Of a stretch of DNA of 64,000 nucleotides, positions 8,519-10,025 are shown piece after piece. How positions within the stretch are numbered: position 1 is the first letter of the stretch; each line of letters opens with the position of its first letter. Below the pieces are notes generated by a model. It saw only the letters and a program-made list of their open reading frames with translations, was not told the DNA's origin and ran no database searches. The position numbers and the translations under genes were made by a program. The DNA comes from Asterochloris sp. CNOR1 (lineage: Eukaryota > Chlorophyta > Trebouxiophyceae > Trebouxiales > Trebouxiaceae): NCBI GenBank assembly GCA_963969365.1, contig OZ017750.1, forward strand, positions 558,001 through 622,000, read 5' to 3'.

Positions 8519-9719
8519 GTGTGGGGGCAGGGGCCAGGGGATGCCTAAGTTCTGGTGCTGTTGTCTCCTCTGTAAGATGCCTGTCCAAGCCCTTTGTATG
8601 GTCTGTTTTCTTTGTGTGGTGCTTGGGGATGCAAAGCTGGAAGGGAAGTTGCACTTAGGTCAGAAACACACATGGGCACCTAAAACCATCAGCCCGACTT
8701 GCCCTGGCCTCGAGGTTCTCAATGGAAACATTACCACCAACCCAGGAGGTTCCCCAGAGCTGCTGCTCAGCTTGAACCCCACTTTCCAACCCAACCCCAC
8801 CTCAGCTTGCTTCCAGCAGCGTTGCGTCGCCCAACAGTGGGACAATCAGGCATGCAGTGCACATGCTTGGAGGTTCAGCAATGCTGTTGAGGGCCACCCA
8901 TAGTATTTGGTCTGGTTTGTAGGTAGTTCTTCCTAAGTCGAGCATGGCTTTCTGACCTGTCCCAAACATTGTCTAGCAGCCTTCCACACCTTGTGTACAA
9001 GACGCTGACCTTGCCACTACAGCACGCGCAGTTCGTGTGATACCCTGCAGGGAGGCAGGCAAGCGAGGCTTGTTGCAGGTGCTGGCAAGAGATGCTGCAG
9101 TTGACCTTATGCATGCAGTTAGTAGTTGAAGTCAGAAAGTGCACAACTCATGTGCAGCAGGGAGCCAGGTGGACTGCACCCCTGTCCGGCCTGGGGGCCA
9201 GCCTTTCGACTGCTTCAGTCAGAGCACAACATCTGCGGCTGGCGTGATCCTTGTGGATCAGCTTGCTTGACCAGACTGGGGCAAGAGCAAACACTGCAAA
9301 ATGCAGAGCTGGCTGCAGGGAACTGTGACACAGCTTACTGACTTGTCTGTGAAAGAGCCGCGCACAGGCCTGGCTAAGTGATGGCGTTCAGGGATCTGCA
9401 TGCCACCCACCATGTGGGATGCAACAGGGAAGGTGGCTCAGTGGCATGGAGGGTCCTGTGCTCAGCCTGCCAATTACGCTGTAGCAAGGGGCAACTCCCA
9501 TTTCACACACAGCCTTGAGGTGGGTTCCTACTACTATTGCTTTCTTCCTTGCAGCTTGCCATGATTCGCACCATACAGCCGCAAGTTTTGAGCCAGGGAC
9601 AGCATCAGGGTGCATAACCTGCCAGGAGTGATTCTCATGCATTGATATTGATTGCCCTACATCCAGCGATTGGTTTATGGGTTAAGGCGCCTGCCTAAAC
9701 ATCTCAAATGCTCAATCGA
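8519..9719. other. Intergenic; no gene recognised
   Basis: About 1.2 kb upstream of the CCDC137-like gene and upstream of the tRNA. It should hold the minus-strand promoter of the CCDC137-like gene. Short frames here lack phase-consistent splice sites. At 9665-9700 there is a tRNA D-arm-like stretch (GGTTAAGGCGCCTGCCT) that I could not fold into a whole tRNA. Confidence 0.45.
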
Positions 9720-9826
9720 TTCGGAGTGGCGCAGCGGAAAACTTCAGGTCCCTCAGCGTGCTGGGCCCATATCGTACTTCGATGTTGGCAACCCAGAGGT
9801 CGAATGATCGAAACATTCCTCCGAAA
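9720..9826 (+). tRNA. Initiator tRNA-Met (CAT) with two internal insertions
   Basis: Acceptor arms TTCGGAG (9720-9726) and CTCCGAA (9819-9825) pair perfectly, with A73 at 9826. D stem GCGC (9729-9732) pairs with GCGT (9756-9759). Anticodon stem CTGGG (9761-9765) pairs with CCCAG (9792-9796), with CAT at 9768-9770. T arm GAATG/CATTC (9802-9818) has the eukaryotic initiator loop ATCGAAA. Two extra segments interrupt it. One of 19 nt (9772-9790) sits between positions 37 and 38, the canonical tRNA intron site. One of 16 nt (9740-9755) lies in the D loop. With both removed the RNA is 72 nt and closely resembles plant tRNAi-Met (GGCGCAGCGGAA, GGGCCCATAA). The polymerase III B box is intact. Confidence 0.88.
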
Positions 9827-10025
9827 CTTTCTTTTTCTTAGCCGTGAATTGTGGGGTACAAGAAACTTGCAGTCAGCTGGCAGCGAGGTAGCAAAGAAAT
9901 TGTTGTCGCGTCTTCAGCACTGGTCAATACATTTGGTTACAAGAGGACAGGCGGGGTTCGCTTGGCATAGTCTCAGACCATGTGGGTCTTCACACAGCGT
10001 CACAATGTACAGAGCACAATCAGTG

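Follow-up and report, generated by a model that had tools for sequence, protein, structure and literature searches.

A nuclear initiator tRNA-Met gene with a probable second intron in its D loop, among tRNA genes interrupted at several positions, in the green alga Asterochloris

The nuclear genome of the green alga Asterochloris sp. CNOR1 contains an initiator tRNA-Met (tRNAi) gene that, judging from its sequence, is very probably a working gene with two introns, one at the canonical position 37/38 and one at an ectopic position in the D loop (20/21 or 21/22), and that belongs to a set of such genes. The genome under study, which looks like that of a lichen alga, comprises 56,383,464 bases in 21 contigs. 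For a plastid-type CcsA protein from contig C21, four of at least 120 matches carry an organism name, namely Neocystis brevis, Bracteacoccus (two matches) and Musa balbisiana; Neocystis and Bracteacoccus belong to Chlorophyta, which supports a green alga. The gene lies in a window of 64,000 nt (C5 558001-622000), by which we mean the whole stretch of DNA that was analysed; coordinates given below without a contig name refer to this window.

The gene spans 107 nt on the forward strand (9720-9826), arranged as an exon of 20 nt, a segment of 16 nt, an exon of 16 nt, a segment of 19 nt and a last exon of 36 nt. Exon 1 (9720-9739) supplies the 5' strand of the acceptor stem, which pairs at 7/7 positions with 9819-9825, followed by tRNA positions 8-21, and it encloses the A-box region (~9727-9738). 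The ectopic D-loop intron follows at 9740-9755 when the site is placed at 21/22. Because A9739 and A9755 are interchangeable (shifts 0 and -1 both fit), the site carries a one-base ambiguity, and a cut at 20/21, which ends exon 1 at 9738 and places the intron at 9739-9754, is equally good. Exon 2 (9756-9771) provides the 3' strand of the D stem, the 5' strand of the anticodon stem, the anticodon CAU and A37. It is separated from exon 3 by the canonical 19-nt intron at 37/38 (9772-9790), a position that the D-loop insertion does not share. Exon 3 (9791-9826) comprises A38, the 3' strand of the anticodon stem, the variable loop AGGTC, the T arm GAATG-ATCGAAA-CATTC, the 3' strand of the acceptor and A73; CCA is not encoded. 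Downstream, on the same strand, a run of five T (9832-9836) is a probable RNA polymerase III terminator.

The joined exons form a 72-nt tRNA with the anticodon CAT, the T loop ATCGAAA and 21/21 cloverleaf pairs (acceptor 7/7, D stem 4/4, anticodon stem 5/5, T stem 5/5); in the D stem and the anticodon stem, the paired strands lie on either side of an insertion. Taking out the 9740-9755 segment, which does not lie at 37/38, makes the cloverleaf complete. The original prediction had described a 19-nt intron at 9772-9790, a 16-nt insertion in the D loop at 9740-9755 and, once both are taken out, a fully paired 72-nt tRNAi with an AUCGAAA T loop. All three descriptions held when the exon coordinates were checked, the D-loop insertion being readable in the two ways given above. 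The order of the gene is linear and not circularly permuted, as its 3' half does not lie upstream of its 5' half. With introns allowed, ARAGORN called the spliced sequence as tRNA-Met(cat) and gave no call for the unspliced gene; scans of the window by ARAGORN and by Rfam did not detect the gene at 9720-9826.

About 20 bases upstream of the gene, a stretch at 9670-9699, TTGGTTTATGGGTTAAGGCGCCTGCCTAAA, looks similar to a D arm of the class II type (Ser/Leu tRNAs). We weighed whether it might belong to a second gene; inspection by eye revealed neither partner arms nor a matching T arm nearby.

Eukaryotic cytosolic initiator tRNAs are marked by three G-C pairs at 29-31:39-41 together with the CAU anticodon, by A60 in the T loop and by a D loop without residue 17. 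The window tRNAi carries GGG/CCC adjoining the anticodon loop, has both A54 and A60 (AUCGAAA) and lacks residue 17 in its D loop. A T loop of the sequence ATCGAAA is usually taken as an initiator mark. The same loop was observed in an uninterrupted tRNA-His(GTG) (L022/L143, C8:2872648-2872720), and the AUCGAAA loop is therefore not unique to tRNAi. The usual eukaryotic tRNAi also has an A1:U72 pair, from which that of fission yeast departs as well. The window tRNAi has U1:A72 instead, which is unusual and counts against the reading of a working tRNAi gene. A passage of PMC3978253 names A54U55C56 as an initiator feature.

The genome was searched for other tRNAi copies with five probes, all built on the sequence of the window gene; D-arm patterns ending in GC were not counted among them, because they do not fit the initiator D arm. 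The exact A-box word was present at 2 places genome-wide and, with one mismatch, at 28. When a gap of 0-30 was allowed, the anticodon arm occurred at 2 places, the one outside the window having no initiator T loop nearby, and the T-arm pattern at 8 places, where the single other tRNA was a tRNA-His. BLAST of the spliced window tRNAi returned the window locus as its sole match. The search for further copies that had been proposed thus returned no uninterrupted tRNAi by any of the five probes, and it revealed a second copy interrupted at the same D-loop site. An initiator anticodon motif lay at most 350 bases from the locus centre at two of the 28 one-mismatch A-box places, namely the window gene and locus L025 (C1:3593406 region, minus strand). 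L025, which was found by a looser script, rules out the window gene as the single tRNAi of the genome. It had been missed by the anticodon-arm, BLAST and T-arm probes and by the strict script; since it escaped these four steps, a strongly diverged intact copy could escape too.

In L025 the D arm and the 3' strand of the acceptor are the same as in the window gene, and the introns are a 19-nt insertion at 20/21 and a 13-nt insertion at 37/38. The D-loop segments of the two copies differ in length and sequence, while the flanking exon letters are identical. Relative to the window gene, one anticodon-stem pair has changed from C-G to A-T and one T-stem pair from T-A to A-T, with both sides changed in each case. 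The 5' acceptor strand of L025 is paired at 3/7 positions. Because an intron in the 5' acceptor that could explain this was looked for and not found, the copy is probably degenerate at its 5' end. An alternative parse, in which an 11-nt intron precedes another 3' acceptor strand with several G-U pairs, was not computed and was rejected because it leaves out the conserved CTCCGAA.

Further tRNA loci were collected with B-box and A-box patterns and a tRNA family model, and were parsed with ARAGORN and by hand. Two of the place lists were used in part (100 of 136 and 100 of 116), and from some only the places that looked tRNA-like by eye were taken on. The resulting sample favours genes whose A or B boxes are intact and does not amount to a census, and the intron positions are our own assignments from the joined exons. 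Introns outside 37/38 occur in at least 13 genes (13/28 of the nuclear tRNA genes resolved) and occupy ten positions altogether. The two tRNAi genes, with introns at 20/21 (or 21/22 in the window gene), share an additional 37/38 intron with elongator Met (65/66), Arg(CCT) (50/51), Tyr(GTA) (51/52), Thr(CGT) (42/43) and the first copy of Ile(AAT) (47/48). The remaining disrupted genes are Ile(TAT) (about 59/60), two Phe(GAA) genes (59/60, 56 nt each), the second copy of Ile(AAT), with introns at 32/33, 44/45 and 50/51, and two Ser(GCT) genes (62/63, introns of 22 and 20 nt). Two of the 28 genes, both Lys(CTT), have only the 37/38 intron, and 13 are uninterrupted: His, Glu (two), Asp, Gly(CCC), Asn, Cys, Gln(CTG), Arg(ACG) (two), Thr(AGT), Ser(AGA) and Ser(CGA).

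Disrupted genes were found on nine nuclear contigs other than that of the window (C1, C3, C8, C9, C10, C12, C14, C16 and C17) and at a second place on C5. When 14 spliced sequences, from 12 of the 13 disrupted genes and the two Lys genes, were submitted to ARAGORN, 14/14 were recognised with the right anticodon. Left unspliced, 6/14 received no call at all and the second copy of Ile(AAT) was misread as Val. No permuted tRNA gene was found at the thresholds of our script among the loci scanned, which were part of all loci collected. No gene for Ala, Leu, Pro, Trp or Val was resolved in this probe-biased sample; these could be permuted or still more heavily interrupted, or the probes may just not have covered them.

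Paralogous genes provide the evidence that the segments are introns. The two Ile(AAT) genes have introns at different places, and their joined exons are identical at 72/74 positions, the two differences making up a single change of a G-C to an A-T pair. The introns of the two Phe genes also differ, and their acceptor has one both-sided change from C-G to T-A. The Ser(GCT) genes, which lie ~600 bases apart and may be recent duplicates, give identical 81-nt products after removal of introns of 22 and 20 nt. Because the introns vary between paralogues, whereas the exons agree or mostly co-vary in pairs, we read the segments as introns and not as damage. From these comparisons, it seems that the joined exons were kept by selection while the segments drifted. 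Some disrupted genes may nevertheless be dead, given a mismatch in the T stem of the second Phe gene and the broken acceptor of L025.

We then scored the introns for a bulge-helix-bulge (BHB) motif in its strict form, with 3-nt bulges, a 4-bp central helix, and outer and inner helices. Intron boundaries were set by hand so as to restore the tRNA, shifts across exact repeats were allowed alike in the data and in the shuffles, and the controls were shuffled introns that kept base composition only. The set comprised 14 ectopic introns, with L025 left out, and 8 canonical introns for comparison. Against shuffled introns, the ectopic set gave Fisher P values of 5.7e-7 for all helices, 8.8e-11 for the intron helices and 4.1e-3 for the central helix alone; these became 1.7e-6, 1.5e-9 and 7.8e-3 when one Ser and one Phe duplicate were omitted. 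The corresponding values for the canonical introns were 0.10, 0.17 and 0.15. Individually, 7/14 ectopic introns had P above 0.05 for all helices, and no BHB signal was present in the Tyr (T stem), Thr and both Phe introns (P 0.36-0.80). Shifted registers reached the actual intron-helix score in 46/219 cases for the ectopic introns, in 31/118 for the canonical ones and in 0/15 for the D-loop intron of the window gene.

For that D-loop intron, the BHB P values were 0.025 (all helices), 0.014 (intron helices) and 0.33 (central helix alone). The best register, in which the D stem is shifted, pairs 3/4 positions in the central helix and as many in the outer and in the inner one; when the true D stem is kept, these values are 2/4, 4/4 and 0/4. 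With the D stem left in its true register, the D-loop intron of L025 reaches 3/4, 4/4 and 3/4 (P 0.036 and 0.062). When the intact 107-nt window precursor is folded, its minimum-free-energy structure retains 21/21 cloverleaf pairs, which goes beyond chance, as 61/1000 precursors with shuffled introns did so. In this predicted fold, a helix between exon and intron extends the D stem, so that the 3' site falls at a 2-nt bulge and the 5' site lies within a loop; at the 37/38 intron, the anticodon pairs with the intron and the 3' site lies in a 3-nt bulge. The overall folding energy of the precursor is not unusual (z -1.11; 28/200 shuffles fold at least as well), nor is the D-arm hairpin unusually stable (3389/5000 shuffled introns are at least as stable), and the predicted fold of L025 does not keep the cloverleaf. 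The original prediction had pointed to a possible BHB motif at 9739/9756. A BHB-like fold is indeed predicted there, but it is imperfect. As modelled, the motif would be of a relaxed kind, because the fit in the window gene is modest, the hairpin is ordinary and the fold of L025 loses the cloverleaf.

The tRNA_int_endo domain was found at two places in the genome. The exon at one of them matches Sen34 structures (best E 4.9e-7). The exon at the other had no match among solved structures at E up to 1, and by its motif we take it to be Sen2-like. The D-loop segment of the window gene is probably cut by the tRNA splicing endonuclease. According to the mechanism that we propose, the gene would be transcribed from its uninterrupted A- and B-box regions, with transcription stopping at the T run. 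The precursor would fold into a cloverleaf whose D stem is lengthened by A14-U, G15-C, a bulged C16, G18-C, G19-C and A20-U (tRNA numbering), so that a 2-nt bulge would hold the 3' site and the facing loop the 5' site. A tRNA splicing endonuclease of the Sen2/Sen34 type would probably cut both introns, after which tRNA ligase would join the exons.

Other explanations of the interrupted gene were weighed against this reading. That the window gene is a pseudogene, namely a dead tRNAi with a random insertion whose working counterpart lies elsewhere, would agree with a passage of PMC4090602 in which short insertions in D and T arms, mostly met in one of many synonymous copies, are taken as pseudogenes, and the degenerate acceptor of L025 points the same way. 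However, the window copy has kept all 21 stem pairs, the tRNAi loops and the T run, five probes gave no uninterrupted copy, and both tRNAi copies are interrupted at the same site. Moreover, ectopic introns are also present in genes of other isoacceptors, which a pseudogene would not explain, and we consider this explanation quite unlikely. It is very unlikely that the D-loop segment stays in the RNA, giving a mature tRNAi with a 23-nt D loop. The predicted fold of the precursor does show an extended D arm, yet the segment differs in length and sequence between two copies whose adjoining exon letters are the same, and other genes form their T stems or acceptors only after such segments have been removed.

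If the segments are indeed spliced out, an agent other than the tRNA splicing endonuclease might be responsible. The T-stem intron of Tyr, the Thr intron and the two Phe introns show no BHB fit, and the removal route of 3-nt introns in the Guillardia theta nucleomorph is given as unknown in part of PMC4090602. The enrichment of the motif across the set and the occurrence of the endonuclease domain at two places argue for the endonuclease itself, and make another agent unlikely. An error of assembly or a contaminant is hardly credible, as nothing was found in its favour, the gene lies on a 3.79-Mb contig of a 21-contig assembly, and the same kind of gene recurs on the nine further nuclear contigs and at the second C5 place. 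We therefore retain the reading of a working tRNAi gene with two introns.

In comparing these genes with known systems, we draw on passages of the works cited. Nuclear tRNA genes of the red alga Cyanidioschyzon merolae have introns in the D, anticodon and T arms, several per gene (PMC9602550, Nagato 2022); according to the same text, the sites include 14/15 and 55/56, tRNA-Ile(UAU) has three introns, and the motifs are of BHB type. The nuclear genes of Asterochloris likewise have introns in several arms and several per gene. C. merolae has 11 permuted genes, whereas Asterochloris showed none among the loci scanned, and a passage of PMC3978253 describes the initiator gene of C. merolae as permuted at 50/51, unlike the linear Asterochloris gene with its D-loop intron. 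For nucleomorphs of cryptophytes and chlorarachniophytes, chiefly that of G. theta, part of PMC4090602 describes D and T arms interrupted by introns, and genes with several of them; it also reports excision demonstrated by RT-PCR and introns down to 3 nt in G. theta, and credits the nucleomorph work to Kawach 2005 and Maruyama 2010. Nucleomorphs, however, are relict nuclei of secondary endosymbionts, whereas Asterochloris has an ordinary 56-Mb genome. The non-canonical introns of archaea (Thermoproteales and others), as summarised in a section of PMC4090602, lie, among other sites, at 20/21 and 59/60, have BHB and relaxed motifs, and can be several per gene. Both positions are shared with Asterochloris, whose genes are eukaryotic nuclear ones. 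By analogy, the D-loop intron of the window gene would work like the ectopic introns of C. merolae and archaea. The original prediction had noted D-arm introns as known from Cyanidioschyzon and some archaea, and had called one unusual in a green alga, as the portions drawn from the reviews PMC3978253 and PMC4090602 also indicate.

Among green algae, permuted tRNA genes are described for prasinophytes and Auxenochlorella in parts of PMC3978253 and PMC12633428, and a table in PMC3978253 includes a permuted initiator gene of Micromonas pusilla. In those algae the gene halves are swapped, whereas the Asterochloris genes have the normal order with introns inserted. The one green-algal case of an ectopic intron in the table of PMC3978253 is Ser(TGA) of O. 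lucimarinus, with an intron at 27/28, which is, as far as that table goes, the nearest green-algal ectopic intron to the Asterochloris set. A passage of the same 2014 review describes green algae as almost without ectopic-intron tRNA genes, and one in Yoshihisa 2014 (PMC4090602) names nucleomorphs and C. merolae as the exceptions to the pseudogene view of D- and T-arm insertions in eukaryotes. A sentence in another 2014 review (PMC4033280) lumps C. merolae and green algae together for permuted or multiple-intron tRNA genes, and as it stands this sentence weighs against novelty; a table in that review lists C. merolae as the sole eukaryote for multiple introns. Among the open-access papers that our literature searches listed, we found no report of ectopic tRNA introns in the nuclear genome of a core chlorophyte, and a green-algal ectopic-intron set of such size looks new.

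A broader proposal, which in our view stands about evenly between true and false, is that a core green alga independently took up, or kept, an archaea-like form of tRNA splicing in which the endonuclease reads the BHB anywhere in the tRNA and not only at 37/38. Essential decoding would depend on it, both for Met (initiator as well as elongator) and for those Ile, Phe and Tyr genes that were found, so that introns would have spread through the tRNA set. If true, eukaryotes would have gained or retained relaxed tRNA splicing on more than one occasion, since a green-algal nucleus would need ectopic splicing for its two Met tRNAs and for the Ile, Phe and Tyr genes resolved here. Asterochloris would then provide another eukaryote in which to study changes of the endonuclease. 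It would also follow that tRNA annotation by standard means can miss genes in genomes of this kind; for Auxenochlorella, part of a preprint (PMC12633428) reports an incomplete tRNA set from tRNAscan-SE.

The introns at about 59/60 of the Phe and Ile(TAT) genes (L158, L160 and L151) fall within the B box, so these genes may be transcribed without an intact one. Such transcription is discussed for C. merolae in a passage of the Soma review.

Several loci were left out of the 28 genes: L152, L148, L139 and the copies of a tRNA-Cys(GCA)-like repeat. The Ser(TGA)-like L152 (C10:822700-823300; Rfam match 7-64 of 71) and the Thr(TGT)-like L148 (C16:2246400-2246900; Rfam match 4-67 of 71) have acceptors that are unpaired as they stand, and perhaps represent genes with acceptor-stem introns or dead genes. 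By eye, a 12-nt intron at 69/70 would complete L148, though weakly. L139 (C18:178950-179450, minus strand) displays a B box, a perfect T stem, a T run and a 7-bp acceptor (GGCCAAG/CTTGGCC), with no recognisable D arm and no Rfam match; it is perhaps a heavily disrupted tRNA gene. Finally, a number of nuclear RF00005 matches belong to copies of a dispersed repeat that begin like tRNA-Cys(GCA) and have a tail in common, CACCCCCACCCAGGGTATAAA or a near variant (L050, L061, L062, L066, L075, L105, L110, L117, L131, L146 and others); the repeat is perhaps a tRNA-derived SINE family.
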